From IMG/VR virus record IMGVR_UViG_3300036828_000907, positions 1 to 20,269 of that record: DNA of 20,269 bases. The stretch is one strand, 5' to 3'. The stretch's first letter is position 1. Each line of letters begins with the position of its first letter. The DNA is from a virus. Shown here piece after piece: positions 4,309-16,853 of this stretch. The translations under genes and the position numbers were made by a program. A model generated the notes under the pieces. The model made no database searches. It saw only the letters and a program-made list of their open reading frames with translations, and was not told where the DNA came from.

Positions 4309-4638
4309 GGTCTCTTCTCCAAGTTCCATTTTAGATGGGACTCAGCAAGAGTAAAAAAAGAAAAGGCAATTCTGTAATGATTTCATTTTCCATTTTTAAG
4401 ATTACCCCCCTTTTTTATTTCCTATGGCCTACAAGAAGAGAACGAAGGAGAAGTATAAAAGGGAAAAAGGAATACCAAAAGAGGGGGTAAAATGGAAATG
4501 GGAAAGTACGAAAGATGGGTTCCATCACTGCGAGAAAAGCCGGCGGCAGCCGGCTCCTTTGCTGCGAGAAAAACGCCAAGCTGGAACCGCAGGATTTTTT
4601 GTGGAATGGTCCCCTCCCAGCCAAGGAGGTTTTTAGCC
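4309..4638 (+). promoter_or_regulatory. AT-rich promoter region and structured leader of the NusG-like gene
   Basis: This 330-base stretch has no gene I accept. The first part (4309-4500) is AT-rich and purine-rich and likely holds the promoter. TATAAA at 4454-4459 is a possible -10 but lacks a good -35. The second part is structured. AGCCGGC/GCCGGCT (4538-4544/4549-4555) is a perfect 7-bp hairpin. An 11-base direct repeat CTGCGAGAAAA occurs at 4528-4538 and 4562-4572, the first copy running into the hairpin. CCTCC (4613-4617) can pair with the ribosome-binding site GGAGG (4625-4629). Two further segments, 4575-4583 and 4617-4625, can each pair with the first codons of the gene. The leader may therefore control translation. 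Confidence 0.5.
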
Positions 4639-5142
4639 ATGACAGCTTGGCTGGTTGCGAGGGTGATGACTAGTCTCGAGCCCAAGATCACTGATCGGTT
4701 AGCCCGTTTGGAAACGGAGAGCTACTGGCCAAAATTCTGCGATACTATCATAGACAAACGAACGCATAGGAAGCGAAAGATCATCAGGCCACTTTATCCG
4801 TGCTATCTGTTCATCAAGACAATTTCGTTTTATTTCCTCTATGAGATCGAAGGTGTTACAGGCGTCGTCATGTTAGGCGAAAGTCCTGCACGCAGTGATC
4901 GCCTAGACCTCGAAATCATTAAGATGCGAGAGAGCGAGTGTAACGGTTGCGTCCCGGCGCCGATCGTAGAAGTTGCGCCGAGATTGATCGTAGGAAGTAA
5001 CGTGGTGATCTTGTCCGGAGCATTGCGAGGTCACGTCGGCGTTTGCCGAGAGAAGCGCGGAAAGCAAGCGAAGGTAGTTACGAACTTGTTTGGTGGTGAC
5101 ACACCAGTGTGGCATAGCGAGCTTGATCTAGCAGTCGCCTAG
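4639..5142 (+). CDS. NusG/RfaH-family transcription elongation (antitermination) protein
   Basis: The protein is 167 aa from ATG 4639, which follows GGAGG by 9 bases. The longer frame from 4492 adds an arginine-rich, repeat-derived N-terminus and is rejected. Residues 1-100 fit the NGN domain: MTAWLVARV opening strand, basic linker RTHRKRK, and the hallmark PLYPCYLFI (51-59; NusG has P-x2-PGY-x-F). Residues 118-152 form a KOW domain (GSNVVILSGALRGHVGVC). NGN domains bind the RNA polymerase clamp, suppress pausing and can recruit ribosomes or antitermination factors. A phage copy upstream of packaging and structural genes is likely a specialised, RfaH-like regulator of late transcription rather than the general factor. 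An ops-like sequence lies 24 bases after its stop. Family is confident; late-operon specificity is inferred. Confidence 0.88.
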   Translation: MTAWLVARVMTSLEPKITDRLARLETESYWPKFCDTIIDKRTHRKRKIIRPLYPCYLFIKTISFYFLYEIEGVTGVVMLGESPARSDRLDLEIIKMRESECNGCVPAPIVEVAPRLIVGSNVVILSGALRGHVGVCREKRGKQAKVVTNLFGGDTPVWHSELDLAVA

Positions 5143-6793: not shown

Positions 6794-8398
6794 ATGGGTC
6801 GCAGAGGTATCGGGGCCGTCCCCAAGTCCAAGGAACCGCCCAAGAGGATCAACCCGTGGGAGGCTAAGGCACTTTCTCGGGCCGAGAGAGTGATGGCCTT
6901 CTGCGAGGACCTCACGGTCACCTCCGGCGCGGATGCTGGAAAGAAGCTGATCCTGCGGCCGTGGCAGAAGCGGTTCATCAGGGCGGTGTACCGGGTCAGC
7001 TCCGGCAGGGAGATCAGGCAAGTCCGCACCGCCTGCCTGAGCATGGCCCGCAAGAACGGAAAGACCCAGCTGGCCGCCGCCTTGGCGTTGGCCCACGTGA
7101 GTGGGCCGGAGGCGGAGAGCAGGGGTGAGGTGTACGCCTGCGCCAATGACCGCTTCCAGGCCGGCAAGATATTCAACGAGATGGAGGCGATCGTCCTCCA
7201 CCACTCCTGGTTGGCCGCGAGGATCAATATATCCAAGTTCACCAAGAGCATGGAGGACGTGTACAACGGGACGATCTATTGCACCCTGACCTCGGAGGCA
7301 AAGACCAAGATGGGGCTGTCGCCGAGCTTCGTGGTGTACGACGAGTATGGCCAGGCCTCGGACAGAGACCTCTACGACGCAATGGACAGCGCGATGGGCG
7401 CCAGGAAAGAACCGCTGATGCTGGTCATCTCCACCCAGGCGGCGGACAGCTACGCTCCGTTGAGCCACCTGATCGACTACGGCCTGAAAGTGAATGCCGG
7501 AGAGATCAAGGACAACGCGTTCCACATGACCCTGTACGCTGCCCCGGAGGACGCCGACCCATGGGACCCGGAGAGCTGGGAGCTGGCCAACCCAGCCCTG
7601 AACGACTTCCGGTCCTTGGAGGACGTCAGGCGGCTGGCTAACCAAGCCAAACGAATGCCGACCAAGGAGAATGCGTTCCGTAACCTGATCCTGAACCAGC
7701 GGGTCGCCGCGGAGGCGCGGTTCATGGAGCCTTCGGCGTGGAAGGCCTGCGGCGCCGAGCCGGTCATCCCTCCGGGCCACCAGGTGTGGGCTGGGTTAGA
7801 CCTCGGAAGTACGAGAGACCTCACGGCTCTGGTGATTGCCAGAGACGATCCGACCACCGGGCTGTGGCACATCAAGCCCTGGGTGTGGGTCCCCGGTAAT
7901 CTGAAGGAGCGTGGGGACGAGGACGGCGTCCCGTACGAGGTGTGGGAGCGGCAGGGTCTGATCATCGCGGCCGGGATAGCGACCGACCCGAGGGCCGTGG
8001 CCAAGAAGATCGCAGAGGTCAACGCTCAAAATCCAATCAAGGGATTGGCTTTCGACCGTTGGCGACTGGCCGAGGTCAAGCGAGAGCTGGAGGCAATCGG
8101 CTGTAACGTCCCTCTGGTCGAACACGGCCAGGGCTTCAAGGACATGACTCCCGCGGTGGATGTGGTGGAGCGGTTCATCATCCAGGGCAAGATATGCCAC
8201 GGGCTCCATCCCGTACTGACGTGGTGCGCCAACAACGCCGTGGTGATCAAGGACACCGCCGGAGGTCGCAAGTTTGACAAGAGCAACTCGAAGTATCGAT
8301 CCAGGATCGACGCGCTGGTGGCGATGGCGATGGCCCTGTCCGCCGGCGCGGTCAAGGAGCAGGCCAAGGTCATTGACATCGATACGTTGATCGCATGA
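6794..8398 (+). CDS. terL: Terminase large subunit (Terminase_1-type)
   Basis: This 534-aa packaging motor starts at ATG 6794 behind TGGAGA. N-terminal ATPase: adenine-side LRPWQ (54-58), Walker A MARKNGKT (84-91, K90), Walker B FVVYDE (179-184, D183 and catalytic E184) and coupling motif ISTQ (212-215). C-terminal RNase H-like nuclease: LDLGSTRD (D336), AFDRWR (D421) and SRIDAL (D506), a complete acidic triad. Length is typical for HK97-like terminases. It cuts concatemeric DNA and pumps it through the portal encoded at 15426. Unusually, no small subunit gene is recognised upstream; the preceding gene encodes an Ig-like protein. The stop codon overlaps the ATG of a tiny membrane-protein gene. 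Identity is very secure from motifs in correct order. Confidence 0.97.
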   Translation: MGRRGIGAVPKSKEPPKRINPWEAKALSRAERVMAFCEDLTVTSGADAGKKLILRPWQKRFIRAVYRVSSGREIRQVRTACLSMARKNGKTQLAAALALAHVSGPEAESRGEVYACANDRFQAGKIFNEMEAIVLHHSWLAARINISKFTKSMEDVYNGTIYCTLTSEAKTKMGLSPSFVVYDEYGQASDRDLYDAMDSAMGARKEPLMLVISTQAADSYAPLSHLIDYGLKVNAGEIKDNAFHMTLYAAPEDADPWDPESWELANPALNDFRSLEDVRRLANQAKRMPTKENAFRNLILNQRVAAEARFMEPSAWKACGAEPVIPPGHQVWAGLDLGSTRDLTALVIARDDPTTGLWHIKPWVWVPGNLKERGDEDGVPYEVWERQGLIIAAGIATDPRAVAKKIAEVNAQNPIKGLAFDRWRLAEVKRELEAIGCNVPLVEHGQGFKDMTPAVDVVERFIIQGKICHGLHPVLTWCANNAVVIKDTAGGRKFDKSNSKYRSRIDALVAMAMALSAGAVKEQAKVIDIDTLIA

Positions 8399-8692: not shown

Positions 8693-8881
8693 ATGGACTA
8701 TATCGATTTGGTTTTTAGGGCGCCTGAGCCAGAGTTCGCGGCCAAGACTGGGTGCGGTGGTCTATTGATCACCACCGTCATGTTGACGAAGTGGCAAATT
8801 GAGTATCTCAGGTCACTCAAGCTAGACGAGAGACTGAGCGACGGCGATGTCGTGGTAATTCCTGCGCGGGAGGGTGAGTGA
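8693..8881 (+). CDS. Small hypothetical protein of the lysis block
   Basis: This 62-aa frame starts at ATG 8693 with GGGAG about 8 bases upstream. It is soluble and mixed in character: a first hydrophobic strand (IDLVF), a Gly/Thr-rich core (GCGGLLITTVMLTKWQ), and an acidic end (LSDGDVVVIPAREGE). The stop (8879-8881) lies just before the amidase ATG at 8883, and its last codons supply the amidase ribosome-binding site, so the genes are coupled. No family is recognised. Being between the holin candidate and the amidase hints at a role in lysis control, but nothing in the protein itself shows this. Confidence 0.65.
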   Translation: MDYIDLVFRAPEPEFAAKTGCGGLLITTVMLTKWQIEYLRSLKLDERLSDGDVVVIPAREGE

Positions 8882-8882
8882 G

Positions 8883-10004
8883 ATGAAAGTCGTAATCTCT
8901 TCCGGCCACGGGCTGAAGGTCCGCGGCGCCAGTGGCTACCTCGACGAGGTAGACGAGGCTCGCACGGTCGTCGAGGCGGTCGCCGATCTGATGCTGAAGA
9001 GCGGGGTCGGCGTGAAGACCTTCCACGATGACATCTCGGACACCCAGAGTGAGAACCTCGAGGCGATCGTGGACTACCACAACGCCCAGGACCGTGAGCT
9101 CGATGTCTCGGTCCACTTCAACGCCTACCAAACTACCTCGAAACCGATGGGCTGCGAGGTTCTGTACGTGACCCAGCACGAGCTGGCCTCCGAGATGTCG
9201 AGGGCCATCTCCTCCTCTGGCGACTTCATCGACAGAGGAGCGAAATATCGTGACGACCTGTACTTCCTCAATAACACCGAACAACCTGCGATCTTGCTCG
9301 AGGTGTGCTTCGTTGACAGTTTGGCCGACGCAGAGTTGTATCGAGAGAAGTTTGATGAAATTTGTGCCGCGATCGCCTCGGTCATCTCTGGGCAAGCGAT
9401 CGCCGATGTCCCACCGCCGGAGCCGGAGCCTGAGCCTCCGGCCGAAGTCAGCGGCGAGAACCGGGTTGACATCTTTGGCACCATAGAGGGTGACGTGACC
9501 GTAGTGATCAATGGCCAGCGGGTCAGTGGTACGTCCCGCTGTCTCAATCTGGTCAGCATGAAGATAAAGATGCACGGAGACGTCACGGTCTCGATCAATG
9601 GGCAGGACTTTCACAACGCGCCGGTGATCCCACCCAACCAGTGCGGGATCATCGCGACGGTATTCGGCGGAGAGAGCGACTACAACGTCTCGGCCTATGA
9701 CGAGAACAAGGTGCTCAATGACACCGATCTATACGTGGCGCTGCCAGATCGCATCGAGGGTGAGCGCCCGAGAGTGCGGGTATACAACTTGGTCACCGGG
9801 CTCAGCGCTATCGCTGAGATATGGGACGTGGGTCCGTGGAACACCAATGACCCGTACTGGACTACCGGCGAGCGCCCACAGGCCGAGAGCGGTACGGACA
9901 TGGAGGGCACCACTACCAACGGCGCCGGGATCGATCTGTCGCCGGCGCTGGCTGCGGCGCTGGGCATAGACGGCAAGGGCACGGTGGATTGGCAATTCAT
10001 CTAG
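8883..10004 (+). CDS. N-acetylmuramoyl-L-alanine amidase (endolysin) with C-terminal barrel-like domain
   Basis: The 373-aa protein starts at ATG 8883; the GTG at 8874 touches the ribosome-binding site and is rejected. Residues 1-175 are an Amidase_3 zinc amidase: SSGHG (H9), DEVDEAR (E22/E25), SVHFNA (H78) and the catalytic LLEVCFVDS (E140). It cuts the bond between MurNAc and L-Ala in peptidoglycan. A Pro/Glu linker follows (about 178-190), then a β-rich segment with two similar strands (GDVTVVINGQ, GDVTVSINGQ). Residues about 248-373 look like an RlpA-like double-psi barrel domain (CGIIATVFGG, AEIWDVGPWNTNDPYW, NGAGIDLSPALAAALG). No signal peptide is visible, so release would need a holin. 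A virion-borne wall-entry enzyme is an alternative because head genes follow directly. Confidence 0.88.
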   Translation: MKVVISSGHGLKVRGASGYLDEVDEARTVVEAVADLMLKSGVGVKTFHDDISDTQSENLEAIVDYHNAQDRELDVSVHFNAYQTTSKPMGCEVLYVTQHELASEMSRAISSSGDFIDRGAKYRDDLYFLNNTEQPAILLEVCFVDSLADAELYREKFDEICAAIASVISGQAIADVPPPEPEPEPPAEVSGENRVDIFGTIEGDVTVVINGQRVSGTSRCLNLVSMKIKMHGDVTVSINGQDFHNAPVIPPNQCGIIATVFGGESDYNVSAYDENKVLNDTDLYVALPDRIEGERPRVRVYNLVTGLSAIAEIWDVGPWNTNDPYWTTGERPQAESGTDMEGTTTNGAGIDLSPALAAALGIDGKGTVDWQFI

Positions 10005-10014
10005 GAGAGTAATT

Positions 10015-11094
10015 ATGAACGCACAATATCCGAAGACCGGCGCGACCGAACCGCTGAAGCCGTTCAAGCAGGACCCGATCCAGCTTCCGCCGGGCAATCT
10101 ATTCACGCGGTTGCTCACGGCCAAGACGCTGGCCACTCTGAAGCGTTGCCGAATGTGGGACGTGGCCGCGGAGATGTGGCCGAATGACAAGACGCTCCAA
10201 GCTGCGCTGTTACTCCGGGCCGCCTCGACTCCGGCGATGACCACGGTGTCCGGCTGGGCGGCGGAGCTCGTCGCCAAGGTGGTGGCCGATGCCGTCGAGG
10301 CTCTCTCCGCAGCCACCTGCGCGGTGGACGTGATGCGGGCCGGGCTGGTGGTATCGTGGGACGGCTACGGGGCTATCTCCGTCCCGGCCCTCGCGGCCAG
10401 CGCCGGCAACGGCGGCTTTGTCGCAGAGGGTCAGCCTATCCCGGTGAGGCAGTTCTCCACCGCCGGGGTCCAGATCAATCCATACAAGGCGGCATCGATC
10501 AGCGTGTTGACCAGAGAGATGACGGACAGCTCGAACGCAGAGGCGCTCATCTCAGATGCGTTGGTCAAGTCCGCCGCCATGGCTATCGACGCAGTGTTCT
10601 TCGGGGCCGCCGCCGCTAGTGCAGCCGCTCCTGCGGGAATAAGGAATGGGATTGCCACCCTGCCCCCGTCTGCCAATGCCGACCCGTTCGGCGCATTCTT
10701 TGAGGACGTAGCCACGCTGCTCAACTCCGTCGGTCAGGTCGGAGGTCGTGGTCCATATTATCTGATTTCCTCGGTGGGACGATATGGCAGCATGAAGGTC
10801 CGGTTTGTCACCGAGGACCCCAATCTGGCCGTGTTGCCGTCCGCCGCCGTCGGAGCCGATCTGGTGGCGGTGGCCGCGCAGGCGGTGGCTGCGGCTATCG
10901 GCATCGATCCAGACATCGAAACGGTGAATGCCGCCGCGCTGGTGATGGATACCGCGCCTGGAGCAGCGGGCACTATGGGCCCGGAGCGCAGCGTGTGGCA
11001 GACGGACTCGATCGCCATCAAGGTGAGGTGGCCGGTGTCGTGGGCGCTGAGGGACCCGCGAGCGGTGGCGTGGCTTACCCCGGCGTGGAAGTAA
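10015..11094 (+). CDS. Stand-alone HK97-fold major capsid-like protein
   Basis: The 359-aa protein starts at ATG 10015 behind TAGGAGAG. It is clearly paralogous to the capsid part of the fusion at 12849. Shared blocks in the same order are LRAAS-PAM-TV-GWA-ELV, EG-PIPVRQ, LTREM versus WTREM, PAG--NG-A--PP, and a C-terminal RS--QTDS-A. It therefore has the HK97 fold: N-arm, E-loop region, P-domain and A-domain. It has no protease and no coiled-coil scaffold; the protein begins about where a mature N-arm would. The middle is very Ala-rich (AAAASAAAPAG). It may be a minor capsid subunit, for instance at vertices, or a recently duplicated main subunit. Which copy dominates in virions is not visible here. 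Confidence 0.85.
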   Translation: MNAQYPKTGATEPLKPFKQDPIQLPPGNLFTRLLTAKTLATLKRCRMWDVAAEMWPNDKTLQAALLLRAASTPAMTTVSGWAAELVAKVVADAVEALSAATCAVDVMRAGLVVSWDGYGAISVPALAASAGNGGFVAEGQPIPVRQFSTAGVQINPYKAASISVLTREMTDSSNAEALISDALVKSAAMAIDAVFFGAAAASAAAPAGIRNGIATLPPSANADPFGAFFEDVATLLNSVGQVGGRGPYYLISSVGRYGSMKVRFVTEDPNLAVLPSAAVGADLVAVAAQAVAAAIGIDPDIETVNAAALVMDTAPGAAGTMGPERSVWQTDSIAIKVRWPVSWALRDPRAVAWLTPAWK

Positions 11095-11099
11095 TTGCC

Positions 11100-12293
11100 A
11101 TGGAGTTCGGCGTGAGTCCGTTCGTGGATGACCTCCCGGAGCTCGATCCGGTGATCGCCCATGAGCAGACCTCCTACGGTTGGCGTGGTCTCACCGAGCA
11201 TGGAGAGGTGCTCGAGGTCAAGACCAACGGCCACTGCTCCGGTGTGCCAGACTCGATCATGGTGGTTGTCGACGGAAGGCCGATCGGAAGAAGGAGCGTC
11301 ACTAACCAGGTGGGAATAGACATCGGTGGATACCTGCTCCACTTCAACAGGGTGGTCGAGCTTTATCGAGCCAACAAACTCTCCGAGGCTCTCGAGGAGA
11401 GCGAGGCGACTCTGCGTGCGGCCCCGACCCTGCGAGCCAGGTTCAACAGGAGTATGGTCTCGTTGGCCGCAGGGAAGTGGAGCGAGGGTTTGAGCGAGTA
11501 CTGGGAGGTCGAGCAGCGTGATCCATTCATGAGACCCCAGGTCAAGCACGCGCTGTCTCTCGGACTGAGACCATGGAGGGGTGAGGACCTCGAGGGGAAC
11601 AGGCTTCTGTTGCTCCACGCCCATGGCTTTGGTGACACGATCATGTGTCTGCGGTTCGTCAGGGAATTGAACAGCTCGGTGATGGTGATGCCCCCGGAGC
11701 TGATGGGATTGGCCAACCAGGTCGGACGTGTTATCCCAAACGTGATCGGCCAGGTCGGCGGTGACTTCTTCTGTCCGATGCTTCATCTGCTCCACGCGAG
11801 AGGTATAACTCCGGAGCGAGTGAGTGGAGAGAGTTATCTGAATGCTGGCGCCGACCTCAAGTTGGTCAACAAGTGGCACGTCAGATTGACCTCGAGGCGG
11901 AAAAAGATCGGTCTGGCGTGGTCGATAGGTAAGCCGAGTCCGGGTGATTATCCGAGAGAGATCGACGTCGGAGTACTCGCGGAGTGGCTCGGCGGCGACG
12001 GCGAGCTCCACAGCGTCCAGAGCCAGGACCACGAGCGGGCCCGAGAGTGCGGCGTGATCACCCACGAGTTTGAAGACTTTGCGGACTGCGCGGCGATGAT
12101 GCGTTGCATGGATGAGATCATCTCCGTGGACACCGCCGCCCTGCACTTGGCTGGGGCGATCGGCCATCCCAAGGTCTATGGGCTATTGTCCCGCTGGGCG
12201 AGCTGGAGGTGGCTGGCCAATTGGTACGACAACGTCACGCTGCTTAGGCAGACAGTTGACGGCGATTGGACCAGTGCGCTGGCCCAGAGATGA
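11100..12293 (+). CDS. TPR-linked glycosyltransferase (GT9/heptosyltransferase-like)
   Basis: The 397-aa protein starts at ATG 11100, 5 bases after the capsid-like gene, with only a weak GGAAG site, so it is probably coupled. Residues 1-75 are unassigned. Residues about 80-137 form TPR-like helices (LHFNRVVELYRANKLSEALE, LAAGKWSEGLSEYWEV). Residues 165-397 resemble the sugar-nucleotide-binding GT-B fold of TPR glycosyltransferases: LLHAHGFGDTIMCLRF (171-186), KKIGLAWSIG (268-277), and ISVDTAALHLAGAIGHPKVYGLL (341-363) followed by WRWL. Such enzymes transfer sugars to proteins or lipopolysaccharide. Sitting between two capsid genes and before a methyltransferase, it may decorate the virion or alter the host surface. 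Family call is good; substrate is unknown. Confidence 0.82.
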   Translation: MEFGVSPFVDDLPELDPVIAHEQTSYGWRGLTEHGEVLEVKTNGHCSGVPDSIMVVVDGRPIGRRSVTNQVGIDIGGYLLHFNRVVELYRANKLSEALEESEATLRAAPTLRARFNRSMVSLAAGKWSEGLSEYWEVEQRDPFMRPQVKHALSLGLRPWRGEDLEGNRLLLLHAHGFGDTIMCLRFVRELNSSVMVMPPELMGLANQVGRVIPNVIGQVGGDFFCPMLHLLHARGITPERVSGESYLNAGADLKLVNKWHVRLTSRRKKIGLAWSIGKPSPGDYPREIDVGVLAEWLGGDGELHSVQSQDHERARECGVITHEFEDFADCAAMMRCMDEIISVDTAALHLAGAIGHPKVYGLLSRWASWRWLANWYDNVTLLRQTVDGDWTSALAQR

Positions 12294-12874
12294 TGACCGA
12301 GAACATATCTTCCCCGCAGGTGGTCGGACCATTCTCCGAGTACCTCGGGGCCAATGAGTGCTCGATACTGATCGATCTGGTTAAGAGCGTGAGACCCAGG
12401 GTGATGATCGAGTTTGGATGCAATCTGGGGATCACAGCGAAGCGGGTGCTGGAGAACGTGCCGACGTTGGAGAAGTACATAGGCGTGGACGTGCCCGCTG
12501 GATACTTGACCACGCTGGTGTGTCAACTCGGTGAGGTCCCCCAGAGCGCCGGGTGTTACGCGGATGATGCTCGCTTCCATCTCTTGAGCTCGCCCACCCA
12601 GGAGCTTGAGGCCGGTGACCTCGAGCCTTGCGACGCGGTATTCATAGACGGCGACCACAGCTTTCCGGCGGTGACCCACGAGAGTCTGATCGCCAGAGAC
12701 TTGGTCAGGCCCGGCGGGATCATCGTCTGGCACGACTTTCAAAATCCATCCGTAGAAGTCACCGAGACGCTGGTAAGTCTCTGTGAGCAGGGTTGGCCGA
12801 TCGTGGGTGTGAGAAACTCCTGGTTGGCTTTCATGAGGAGGCCACGTGATGCCTATCAAGCCACACAAGGGTGA
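12290..12874 (+). CDS. Class I SAM-dependent methyltransferase (Methyltransf_24-like)
   Basis: The 194-aa protein starts at ATG 12290, overlapping the glycosyltransferase stop (ATGA); ATG 12293 is also possible. Motif I, binding SAM, is VMIEFGCNLGITAKRVLE (38-55), an acidic end of strand 2 is GVDVP (65-69), and CDAVFIDGDHSFPAV (114-128) followed by RPGGIIVWHDF (140-150) are the later motifs typical of small-molecule and sugar O-methyltransferases. The IDGDHSY-like block is characteristic of Methyltransf_24. The overlap with the glycosyltransferase suggests a two-step modification, a sugar that is then methylated. It also overlaps the start of the protease-capsid gene by 26 bases, placing it firmly inside the head operon. 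The target is not known. Confidence 0.85.
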   Translation: MMTENISSPQVVGPFSEYLGANECSILIDLVKSVRPRVMIEFGCNLGITAKRVLENVPTLEKYIGVDVPAGYLTTLVCQLGEVPQSAGCYADDARFHLLSSPTQELEAGDLEPCDAVFIDGDHSFPAVTHESLIARDLVRPGGIIVWHDFQNPSVEVTETLVSLCEQGWPIVGVRNSWLAFMRRPRDAYQATQG

Positions 12875-15086
12875 GAGCGAGAGCGACTTTATGGCCCGCT
12901 GCGTGCCGGAGATGATCGGCACTGGGGCGGACAAGCGACCGCAGGAACAGGCGGTGGCTATCTGCATGGACATCTGGCGCAACAAGGACAAGCAGGTGCC
13001 CGACCCAGACGACTATGAGGATGACGACGAGGATGGGTTCATATCTGACTGCGTCGATGAGATCGGCAATGAGGACGTCTGCCAGATGTTGTGGGAGGAT
13101 CGCTCGGCCGCCGCTATGAGACACAAGACCCACGACGGCAAGGTCAATGGGATGGAGTTCATCCTGTCTGACGAGACGCCGGACCGCATGGACGACGTGA
13201 TCATGAGCGACGGTTGGGATTTCAAGCATTTCAAGAGAAATCCGATCGCCCTGTTTGGCCATCGCTCCGATTTTCCGATCGGGAAGTGGAATAACCTCCG
13301 GGTGGAGAACCACCAGCTCAAGGCCAATCTCGAGATGGCCCCGGAGGGGACTAGTGACAGGATCGATGAGATCAGGAGGTTGGTTGACGCCGACATACTG
13401 AAGGCGGTCTCTGTTGGTTTCAAACCGATAGAGCGTAAGGATAGAGAGGGCACCGATTGGGGCTCTGTCTACACTAAGTGCGAGCTAGTGGAGTGCAGCA
13501 TAGTGGCCGTTCCGGCTAACCCGAACGCACTGGCTGTGGCCAAGAGCTTGAATATCTCTCCCGAGATTATGGGCATGATCTTCGCCGGGCAAGGCAATGG
13601 AGGTCGTATCAGGCGTCGAGGGTTCAACGGCGGGCACGCCAAAAGCAATCGTGAAGGAAAGGGCGGACTCATGTCTAGCCTAGCTCAGCGCATCATGGAC
13701 TTGGAGGCCAAGATCACCTCCAAGCGTGAGGCACTCGAGGCCCACCTCGAGAAGATGGACAACGATAATGTCAGCGATGCTGATATTGAGACCAACAACA
13801 GGCTGAACGATGATATCGCTCAGCTTGAAAAGACTCGTGAGAGTTTGCTCGGTAGCGAGAAGCTGTTGGCCAGGACCACTGGCCCAGAAGGTTCTCGCGC
13901 ACTCAGCATCACGGTTCTCGCGCGAGGAGAGGACAGGCCGGCGGCTCCGTCGGTGATCCTGAACAGGAAGAAGGACAGCATTGACATAGTCGAGCTGTTC
14001 GTCAAGGCCGGTACTCTGGTGTATTTCGCCAAAGCCGCCGGCAGCACTCTGGATGCCGCGAGGGCGAAGATCGCCGAGCGTCACCCCGAGTATCGCGATG
14101 AAGCCACCAAGATCGTGGCTGACATCGTGCTTCGTGCGGCTTCGGCGCCGGCGATGTCCACGGTGGCAGGTTGGGCTCAGGAGCTCGTGCAGACCACCTA
14201 CGCTGCTTTGATGCCGCTGCTCATGCCCAAGGCCATCCTCACTCGTCTCGCGACGAGGGGACTAGCCCTGAGCTTTGGGACGTCCGGCAAGATCGTCATT
14301 CCCACTCGCTCTCGCACGCCCAGCTTGGCTGGCTCGTTCGTGGGTGAGGGTCTGGCTATTCCGGTTAGGCAGGGAGCGTTCACCAGCCAGGCGCTCACTC
14401 CGAAGAAGATGGCCGTGATCACCACCTGGACGCGGGAGATGGATGAGCATTCCATCCCGGCGATCGAGGGGTTGCTCAGGGAAGCCATCCAACAGGATAC
14501 CACAGTGGCGGTCGACAGCGTACTGATCGATGCCAACCCGGCAACCGTGATCAGGCCCGCCGGCCTGCTCAACGGCGTGGCTGCAATTCCTCCCACCGCT
14601 GGTGGTGGGATCGCTGGTATCGTTGGGGATATCGTTGGGCTGATCAACGCGATCAGCGTGGCCACGCTCGGCAACGTGCGCAACCTGGTCTGGCTGGTCA
14701 ACCAGACGGACATGCTTCGCGCGTCTCTACTCTCGGCCCCGAACACCGGCATCTTCCCGTTCCGCGATGAAATTCGCGGCGGTACTCTGGCCACCGTTCC
14801 GTTCATCGACAGCGCCACCGTTCCGGCAAAGACGATGATCTTGATGGATGCGGCCGACTTTGTGGTCGTTGGTGGTGATGCTCCTCGGATGGAAATGTCC
14901 GACCAGGCCACCCTCCACATGGAGGATACCAACCCTCAAGAGCTGGTTGGTTCTCCGAGCACGGTCGCTGCTCCGCAGCGCTCGCTGTTCCAGACGGACA
15001 GCCTTGCTCTGCGAATGGTACTGCCACTGAATTGGTTGCAGCGCCGGACCGGCACGGTGGCTTGGACCCAGAACGTCACCTGGTGA
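12849..15086 (+). CDS. Prohead protease - scaffold - major capsid protein fusion
   Basis: The 745-aa protein starts at ATG 12849, 7 bases after GAGGAGG. Residues 1-46 are a short N-terminal motif (ESESDFMARCVPEM, QAVAICMDIWR) that I know from other phage head genes. Residues about 95-235 are an HK97-type prohead protease: FGHR (H138), AVSVGF (S188) and VECSIVAVPANPNA (215-227). Residues about 275-335 are a charged coiled coil (LAQRIMDLEAKIT, LEAHLEKMD), the scaffold/delta-domain equivalent. Residues about 370-745 are the HK97 capsid fold (VLRAASAPAM, IVIPTRSRTP, GEGLAIPVRQ, TWTREMDEHS, FQTDSLAL). The chain would assemble, cut itself and leave mature capsid. An internal start at 13671 may also give a protease-free form. 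Fusions of this type are known in phages. Confidence 0.93.
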   Translation: MPIKPHKGESESDFMARCVPEMIGTGADKRPQEQAVAICMDIWRNKDKQVPDPDDYEDDDEDGFISDCVDEIGNEDVCQMLWEDRSAAAMRHKTHDGKVNGMEFILSDETPDRMDDVIMSDGWDFKHFKRNPIALFGHRSDFPIGKWNNLRVENHQLKANLEMAPEGTSDRIDEIRRLVDADILKAVSVGFKPIERKDREGTDWGSVYTKCELVECSIVAVPANPNALAVAKSLNISPEIMGMIFAGQGNGGRIRRRGFNGGHAKSNREGKGGLMSSLAQRIMDLEAKITSKREALEAHLEKMDNDNVSDADIETNNRLNDDIAQLEKTRESLLGSEKLLARTTGPEGSRALSITVLARGEDRPAAPSVILNRKKDSIDIVELFVKAGTLVYFAKAAGSTLDAARAKIAERHPEYRDEATKIVADIVLRAASAPAMSTVAGWAQELVQTTYAALMPLLMPKAILTRLATRGLALSFGTSGKIVIPTRSRTPSLAGSFVGEGLAIPVRQGAFTSQALTPKKMAVITTWTREMDEHSIPAIEGLLREAIQQDTTVAVDSVLIDANPATVIRPAGLLNGVAAIPPTAGGGIAGIVGDIVGLINAISVATLGNVRNLVWLVNQTDMLRASLLSAPNTGIFPFRDEIRGGTLATVPFIDSATVPAKTMILMDAADFVVVGGDAPRMEMSDQATLHMEDTNPQELVGSPSTVAAPQRSLFQTDSLALRMVLPLNWLQRRTGTVAWTQNVTW
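13671..15086 (+). CDS. Possible internal start: protease-free scaffold-capsid product
   Basis: In frame inside the fusion, ATG 13671 (residue 275) begins MSSLAQRIMDLEAKI, which looks exactly like the start of stand-alone HK97-type capsid precursors. An AAGG/AGGG purine tract ends about 7 bases upstream (GAAGGAAAGGGCGGACTC). Initiation here would give a 471-aa scaffold plus capsid protein, letting the phage make far more capsid than protease. It overlaps the full-length gene entirely and is a nested product, not a separate gene. Confidence 0.45.
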   Translation: MSSLAQRIMDLEAKITSKREALEAHLEKMDNDNVSDADIETNNRLNDDIAQLEKTRESLLGSEKLLARTTGPEGSRALSITVLARGEDRPAAPSVILNRKKDSIDIVELFVKAGTLVYFAKAAGSTLDAARAKIAERHPEYRDEATKIVADIVLRAASAPAMSTVAGWAQELVQTTYAALMPLLMPKAILTRLATRGLALSFGTSGKIVIPTRSRTPSLAGSFVGEGLAIPVRQGAFTSQALTPKKMAVITTWTREMDEHSIPAIEGLLREAIQQDTTVAVDSVLIDANPATVIRPAGLLNGVAAIPPTAGGGIAGIVGDIVGLINAISVATLGNVRNLVWLVNQTDMLRASLLSAPNTGIFPFRDEIRGGTLATVPFIDSATVPAKTMILMDAADFVVVGGDAPRMEMSDQATLHMEDTNPQELVGSPSTVAAPQRSLFQTDSLALRMVLPLNWLQRRTGTVAWTQNVTW

Positions 15087-15425: not shown

Positions 15426-16853
15426 ATGCGCGCTCTGATCGCCAACACCTTGAGGTCTGTCCTAAAGGCGGTCGAAGGTGGCTTTCGTTCCGGGCCATAC
15501 TATCTACCGCTCACCGGAGGATGGTTGCCGAGTGGCGCGGCGGTCAATTGGTGGCAGGAGGGTTACAACCCTCTGTATGCCTCGACGTGCTCGGCCATGG
15601 TTGAGGCCTGTGTGTCCGCTTACGCGCAGACCGTGGCTATGTGTCCGGGAGACCACTGGCGATTAAATAACAAGGGCGGGCGAGACAGGGTGAAAAACTC
15701 TGCGCTCGCCCGCATCTTGCGACACCCGAACGAGTATCAGTCGATCAGTGACTTTATGCTGAATATCGTGCGTTCGCTGTATGTGAACGGTAACGCCTAT
15801 GCGTTGGCTCTGCGTAATGATCGCTATGAGGTCGCAGAGCTTCATATGATGAACTCGGACATGTCCTATCCTCGCATAGCGATCAACGGAGAGATATTCT
15901 ATTGGCTGGGCGGCAACGACGTGATGGCCAAGATGCTGAACGAAGAGTATCTGGTCGTACCCATGCGCGATGTGCTCCACGTCAGGCTCCACGTGGAGAA
16001 GCGGCGTTATCCAACCCCGTTGGTCGGTGAAAGTCCGATCGTCTCAGCCTATGGTGACATCGGAGTATCAGAGGCCATAGCCAGACAGCAAACCTCGTTC
16101 TACATGAATGAGGCCAGGCCGTCGGCCGTGTTGTCAACCGACCTGGTACTCGATAAGGATCAGGTCCAAGCCCTGCGGGATCGCTGGAATGAGCAGACCA
16201 AGCAACTCAACCAGGGTGGTTCTCCAATCCTAACCGCAGGTCTGAAAGTCCAGCCTTGGGCGGTCGGAGGAAAGGATGCGGCAACGGCAGATATGCTCAA
16301 GCTCTCGAACGAGCATATCGCTCTGGCGTTCAGGGTCCCACTCCAAATCCTGGGATTGGGTGGGACTGCGTACTCTTCCACCGAGCTACTGATGCAAAGC
16401 TGGATCGCCATGGGTCTCGGCTTTTGTCTCAACCACGTGGAGGAGGCGTTCGGCGTTTTGTTTCAACTCAAGGGACAGCCGGACGAGTATGTTGAGTTTG
16501 ATACAGCCGCTCTGCTCAGGTCGGCGTTCAAGGATCGGCTCGAGGGTTTGGCCAGAGCAGTTCAGGGCGGCATCTACGCGCCCAACGAGGCTCGTAACCT
16601 GGAGGGTCTCGAATCTGTTCCGTATGGAGATGAGCCCCGCGTGCAACAACAAGTCGTTCCGTTGAGCGCGGCCAGTAAAATCCCAGCGGCCCCGGCGGCT
16701 CCTCCGGCCCTCGGTCCGGCCGACAAGCCTCTGCCTCCAGACGACAACAAACCTCCGCCCGAGAAAGGCAACAACGATGACATCCAACGGGAAGTCAGAA
16801 ACTTGCTTAGGCTCACCGAGCGAATTGGACAACGGCGCCGATATTCTTCTTGA
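15426..16853 (+). CDS. HK97-family portal protein
   Basis: The 475-aa protein starts at ATG 15426, 5 bases after the previous stop, with only a weak AAGAG site. The order of features fits HK97-type portals: NWWQEGYNPLYAS near the N-terminus, CPGDHWRL (73-80), LRHPNEYQSISDFM (98-111), NGNAYALALR (121-130), a clip/wing region, KLSNEHIALAFRVPLQILG, then SSTELLMQSWI. The last 70 residues are rich in Pro and Ala (AAPAAPPALGPADKPLPP) and replace the usual short tail. The dodecameric portal is the DNA entry channel docked to terminase. It lies after the capsid genes, whereas in HK97 the portal precedes protease and capsid. Its last 77 bases overlap the collagen-like gene. Confidence 0.92.
   Translation: MRALIANTLRSVLKAVEGGFRSGPYYLPLTGGWLPSGAAVNWWQEGYNPLYASTCSAMVEACVSAYAQTVAMCPGDHWRLNNKGGRDRVKNSALARILRHPNEYQSISDFMLNIVRSLYVNGNAYALALRNDRYEVAELHMMNSDMSYPRIAINGEIFYWLGGNDVMAKMLNEEYLVVPMRDVLHVRLHVEKRRYPTPLVGESPIVSAYGDIGVSEAIARQQTSFYMNEARPSAVLSTDLVLDKDQVQALRDRWNEQTKQLNQGGSPILTAGLKVQPWAVGGKDAATADMLKLSNEHIALAFRVPLQILGLGGTAYSSTELLMQSWIAMGLGFCLNHVEEAFGVLFQLKGQPDEYVEFDTAALLRSAFKDRLEGLARAVQGGIYAPNEARNLEGLESVPYGDEPRVQQQVVPLSAASKIPAAPAAPPALGPADKPLPPDDNKPPPEKGNNDDIQREVRNLLRLTERIGQRRRYSS

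Follow-up and report, generated by a model that had tools for sequence, protein, structure and literature searches.

A Stand-Alone HK97-Type Capsid Protein Paired with a Protease–Capsid Fusion in Phages Related to Bradyrhizobium Prophages: A Candidate Minority Subunit of a Two-Component Head Shell

Organization of the Head Gene Module

The window analyzed here is a stretch of 20,269 nucleotides corresponding to positions 1 to 20,269 of the IMG/VR record IMGVR_UViG_3300036828_000907. It belongs to a soil phage that is kin to prophages in the root-nodule bacterium Bradyrhizobium. Two shell genes were found in its head module at the positions proposed in a first-pass annotation and, like the other module genes given below, on the plus strand. 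The first (10015..11094), preceded by a Shine–Dalgarno (SD)-like AGGAGAG, encodes a stand-alone HK97-type capsid protein of 359 aa without protease and scaffold (hereafter A), as defined by alignments and profiles. The second (12849..15086, with an alternative GTG start at 12846) encodes a 745-aa fusion of prohead protease, scaffold-like linker and major capsid protein (hereafter F), as defined by domain and profile matches. Based on Pfam and PHROG matches, the same module includes genes for the terminase large subunit (TerL, 6794..8398) and the portal protein (15426..16853).

Two genes are situated between A and F. The ATG of a putative TPR and GT9-like glycosyltransferase gene (11097..12293; TPR_16 and a sub-threshold Glyco_transf_9 match, E 0.007) lies 2 bases past the A stop codon. 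A SAM methyltransferase gene of the Methyltransf_24 family (12290..12874; Pfam E 2.8e-11) overlaps both the glycosyltransferase gene and F.

An Amidase_3 endolysin gene (8874-10004), which occurs in 5 of 67 related loci, is located between the terminase and A. In addition, a 216-aa protein (4492-5142) that adjoins the structural module has, by eye, a NusG/RfaH-type look with a KOW-like C-terminus.

Domain Composition and Homology of the Two Capsid Proteins

Based on Pfam annotation, F contains Peptidase_S78 (residues 129-229, 13233..13535; E 3.4e-8) and Phage_capsid (PF05065, residues 449-685; E 6e-9) domains; a Pfam search of the A protein alone gave no match. F covers phrog_617, a protease-plus-capsid "major head protein" profile, almost end to end (E 1.5e-80). 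The match of A to this profile is confined to the capsid part (298-622 of 626, E 1.1e-15), which places the start of A about 22 residues ahead of the first helix shared with F. Thus, the first-pass annotation was right that protease and scaffold are carried by the fusion only and that A begins near the mature N-arm. By profile, both proteins belong to the HK97-type major capsid family (phrog_617, and for F also PF05065).

BLASTP aligned A with F at 33% identity and 49% positives over 317 aa (E 4e-33), and all the matching blocks that had first suggested a relationship fall within this alignment. A profile of 63 A relatives matched a profile of 24 F relatives with a probability of 100 and an E-value of 5.3e-54 over 333 columns, pairing A 23-356 with F 377-742; the whole A-aligning capsid part of F covers residues 377-745 (13977..15083). 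The F profile also matched the R4C capsid (8gta, E 6.7e-8). The AlphaFold models, built from shallow alignments, were poor (mean pLDDT 48 for A and 40 for F), and the top PDB matches of the weak A model were HK97-fold shells, namely encapsulins, the HK97 prohead and R4C (best E 4.5e-3).

A second start may lie within F. An internal ATG (13671..13673, plus strand; MSxLAQRI) with an SD-like AAGGA upstream was found right after the protease domain and is kept in 63 of 66 related fusions. An SD match of at least 4 nt was present at 54 of these 63 sites versus 233 of 1289 other internal Met codons (Fisher p 2.6e-29, which is nominal, as the sequences are related). This conservation and SD enrichment suggest that the internal ATG probably yields a protease-free scaffold–capsid chain.

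A segment of F around residues 631-651 (PNTGIFPFRDEIRGGTLATVP, 14739..14801, beginning with FPF) is present in every aligned fusion and all or mostly missing in every aligned stand-alone protein, whether from phage or satellite. Based on general knowledge of the HK97 fold, we tentatively take this segment to be part of the A-domain. The A-domain of HK97-fold proteins surrounds the capsomer axis. The segment difference is the best sequence hint that the stand-alone proteins occupy another kind of capsomer. In phage T4, gp23 with A-domain mutations can replace the pentamer protein gp24 (PMC12407261), and in phage phi12, resistance to the satellite protein Ccm can arise from a mutation in the A loop (PMC8569155).

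Distribution and Co-Occurrence of A and F

Scans of IMG/VR, in which 80 F loci and 80 A loci (of 147 confirmed matches) were kept, provided the survey of related phages that the first-pass annotation had proposed; the counts include near-identical contigs. After sorting by profile, A was upstream of F on the same strand in all 67 loci with both genes, at distances of 1.0 to 5.7 kb. Whole-record searches located F more than 5 kb downstream of A in several records (G034, G038, G039 and G040). The existence of A phages lacking F was rejected for several cases, in which F was found farther along the whole records. The remaining A loci without F stop at contig ends or showed no F, and a few are short records. 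Overall, A occurs together with F in almost all records that are long enough to judge.

A is not universal in fusion phages: F records of up to 82 kb contain only one capsid gene. Since these other fusion phages have a single capsid gene and A is confined to one well-supported F clade (100/100), A is a marker of that clade. The single-capsid relatives also indicate that F can build shells alone and that A would be an added specialist. L009 is the one phage of the A clade that has several kb upstream yet no A; its contig begins within the glycosyltransferase gene, so A would fall off the contig.

The glycosyltransferase gene was found in 67/67 and the methyltransferase gene in 54/67 IMG/VR loci with A and F, versus 5/22 and 3/22, respectively, of the fusion loci without a recognized stand-alone gene (the 22 include the truncated L009). 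One might guess that the two enzymes modify the shell and form a capsid glycosylation cassette.

Additional stand-alone types were also detected. Three contigs (L016, L020 and L021) carry a tandem second, divergent stand-alone copy (type B) beside A, giving three capsid-type genes per head module. In four other contigs (L041, L059, L067 and L071), a type C stand-alone gene is located in the head–tail operon downstream of the portal and connector genes. A search of cultured phages for A gave only one weak match. The two "major capsid" CDS of SOVA965 look like one split gene and not like two proteins.

Selection and Co-Divergence

In the two least saturated pairs (Nei–Gojobori, pairwise only), dN/dS was 0.094 and 0.118 for A and 0.065 and 0.072 for F. 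The first-pass annotation had named a ratio near 1 as the mark of relaxed selection on A; the values found, about 0.1, are not relaxed. The A and F distances were correlated over 47 loci (Mantel r 0.65, reached by 0 of 5000 permutations), with A diverging about 1.7 times as much as F. The low dN/dS together with the correlated distances argues that A is a functioning gene tied to F.

A and F in Bradyrhizobium Prophages

A search of bacterial genomes gave one match, Bradyrhizobium stylosanthis BR 446. In this prophage (NZ_LVEM01000002.1, about 355-376 kb), A is followed directly by F with no gene between, and a contractile-tail sheath gene is located downstream. A survey of 266 Bradyrhizobium genomes revealed four further prophages with A and F, of which G251 carries three and G065 one. 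A was upstream of F in all five prophages, and nothing separated them in two (L187 and L222), which marks the pair, and not the intervening genes, as the core. In another genome (G092), a much more divergent stand-alone gene (type D) was situated just upstream of F.

Two of the G251 prophages, L219 and L220, share essentially identical DNA that starts within the glycosyltransferase gene (position 8298 in L219), includes all of F and reaches at least 13.1 kb. Identity between their A proteins is only 65%, and that between the A genes is about 60% along most of the gene. An identical F beside such different A proteins argues for allele replacement, and on this comparison alleles of A are exchanged while F stays the same. 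Contacts between A and F must then tolerate variation.

Stand-Alone Relatives in Satellite-Like Elements

The same survey revealed some twenty stand-alone capsid genes without F, portal or large terminase genes nearby, as judged by homology to the queries used. Four of these elements (L224, L226, L234 and L247) were examined closely by scanning 44 proteins. All four contain a tyrosine-type integrase and a capsid gene; primase or replication initiator, AlpA or excisionase and defense-type genes (FRG, AbiV) were also found. A small protein is encoded immediately before the capsid gene. TerS-like proteins were recognized weakly in three of the four (E 8.5e-5 to 9e-4) and by similarity only in the fourth. 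Portal, large terminase and tail families were absent among the matches listed for the 44 proteins (25 of 55 PHROG and 13 of 13 Pfam families). By gene content, these elements are PICI-like satellites, and no paper describing them was found in the literature searched. The A gene of the window is not satellite-encoded; it belongs to the head operon of a phage, alongside the TerL, portal and connector genes.

Phylogeny of Fusions and Stand-Alone Proteins

In the phylogenetic tree, all fusions were separated from all stand-alone proteins (100/100). A falls among the latter and outside the entire fusion family, which gives no support to its being a local copy of F. The first-pass description of A and F as paralogs within one module was thus correct as to homology, but a duplication of F in place is not supported.

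Within the stand-alone clade, phage and satellite proteins are interleaved. Type B grouped with the satellite-type L226 (99/93), A and B grouped with L225 and L226 (99/98), and type D grouped with satellite-type proteins (95/91). Based on AU tests, a single clade was rejected both for all phage-borne stand-alones (p 4.8e-8), and with it their single origin, and for the satellite-type proteins (p 6.6e-8), while A and B as one clade were retained (p 0.46). It should be noted that the branches are long and that the tested groups were named after the first tree had been viewed. The relatives of the phage seem to have acquired stand-alone capsid genes on more than one occasion (types A/B, C and D).

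Proposed Role of A in the Head Shell

Based on the above results, we suggest that the head shell consists of two HK97-fold components and that A has become a permanent minority subunit of it, probably one that forms the pentamers at the vertices; we regard this as somewhat probable. The part of the first-pass proposal that stands is a co-maintained pair with one scaffold-free member; a copying of F inside the module, which the proposal implied, is not supported. In such a shell, F would provide the protease, the scaffold and the bulk subunit, and its internal start would probably add a protease-free scaffold–capsid chain. A, having neither protease nor scaffold, must depend on F for recruitment and would join the F lattice as the minority subunit. 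It would most likely form pentamers, since its shorter A-domain loop suits a five-fold axis, and would thereby help to set head curvature and head size. It is possible that the shell is then modified by the glycosyltransferase and methyltransferase encoded between A and F. We infer that A would be present in the virion, at the vertices, and would take part in size control, with glycosylation of the shell as a further possibility. The sister clades with F alone are a point against this model, as are the two prophages with an identical F and unlike A proteins.

The nearest solved precedent is the Ccm protein of the satellite SaPIbov5, a homologue of the helper capsid protein; Ccm forms the pentamers and CP of phi12 the hexamers, and no shell is made from Ccm alone (PMC8569155). 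Like A, Ccm is a shorter stand-alone homologue of an HK97-type capsid protein, and the relatives of A in PICI-like satellites recall the place of Ccm in a SaPI. Ccm needs a partner for a shell, and a similar dependence of A is suggested by analogy. Unlike Ccm, A is a fixed gene of a phage head operon and lacks a delta domain (that of Ccm is cleaved), and its partner F is protease-fused; A and Ccm were compared by description only. The Ccm precedent and the dependence of A on F favor a minority, probably pentameric, subunit. The pentamer idea gains a direct precedent in Ccm and, in addition, a hint from the A-domain difference shared by the whole class.

Phage T4 likewise has a pair of related HK97-fold shell proteins in its genome, and its gp24, 17% identical to gp23, forms pentamers (PMC12407261). 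Like gp24, A shares its genome with a homologous major capsid protein and is maintained together with it; A-domain changes in T4 decide between pentamer and hexamer use. T4 differs in having separate protease and scaffold genes and a gp24 with its own cleaved propeptide, and the vertex place of A is one that we infer. Phages with the PAJU2-type fusion (phrog_617) have the same order of terminase, fusion and portal genes, but, unlike the phage of the window, PAJU2 has no annotated stand-alone partner in its head region.

It is also conceivable, though unlikely, that A co-assembles with F at mixed or irregular positions, in hetero-capsomers of variable composition, and tunes the shell instead of capping vertices. 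The co-maintenance of A and F fits this equally well, and interchangeable A alleles beside one F are in its favor. In the two-component encapsulin of Streptomyces lydicus (Family 2B), two HK97-fold proteins, Sl-Enc1 and Sl-Enc2, also share one shell and are mixed in it irregularly (PMC12407261), but this encapsulin is a compartment of the cell and has no portal, terminase, scaffold or protease. The uniformity of the segment difference over the whole stand-alone class suggests instead a defined position.

The faster divergence of A, its allele swapping and its satellite relatives interleaved in the tree could also point to an anti-satellite or inter-phage competition protein, either vying for the F lattice with the capsid proteins of satellites or domesticated from a satellite to block capsid redirection, with no need of a place in the normal head. 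We consider this quite improbable: A is part of the head operon, where it and its neighbors lie close together, and is found with F in nearly all sufficiently long records, while an accessory defense gene should come and go.

A separate shell built by A, such as an encapsulin-like compartment or an alternative small head, would agree with its HK97-type family and the weak structural matches to encapsulins, but it is very improbable, given that no cargo gene pattern was seen, that the neighboring glycosyltransferase and methyltransferase are atypical encapsulin cargo and that the analogous Ccm makes no shell alone. Finally, the decaying duplicate considered in the first-pass annotation, for which the shorter length and lower conservation of A (mean identity 57% versus 75% for F) might speak, is scarcely credible in view of purifying selection, a frame open in all loci, 41 invariant columns among 63 sequences, co-occurrence and correlated divergence with F, and an origin outside the same-lineage F.

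Implications for Phages and Satellites

HK97-type shells are seldom built from two protomers: apart from the encapsulin that it describes, a 2025 paper cites T4 as another known case (PMC12407261). Here, a large candidate family combines such a pair with protease, scaffold and capsid in one chain. Its members include a prophage of the named strain B. stylosanthis BR 446, and single-capsid sister phages serve as natural controls. The occurrence of the stand-alone family in satellites makes both the origin of capsid-redirecting proteins and the choice between pentamer and hexamer in an HK97-type head testable.

Close relatives of A are found in satellites of these bacteria, so phages and their parasitic satellites may compete for the same shell places. 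A broader and rather doubtful extension is that both draw on one common pool of stand-alone proteins taking the same special position in fusion lattices, which became fixed in phage heads at least twice and perhaps three times (A/B, C and D). The present swapping of A alleles beside an unchanged F would be expected if phages and satellites compete over head size at the vertices.

A relative of A (33% identity) was also found in L260, on the 3.5-Mb plasmid pK101a of Sinorhizobium sp. K101, which hints that the stand-alone capsid family reaches other rhizobia.
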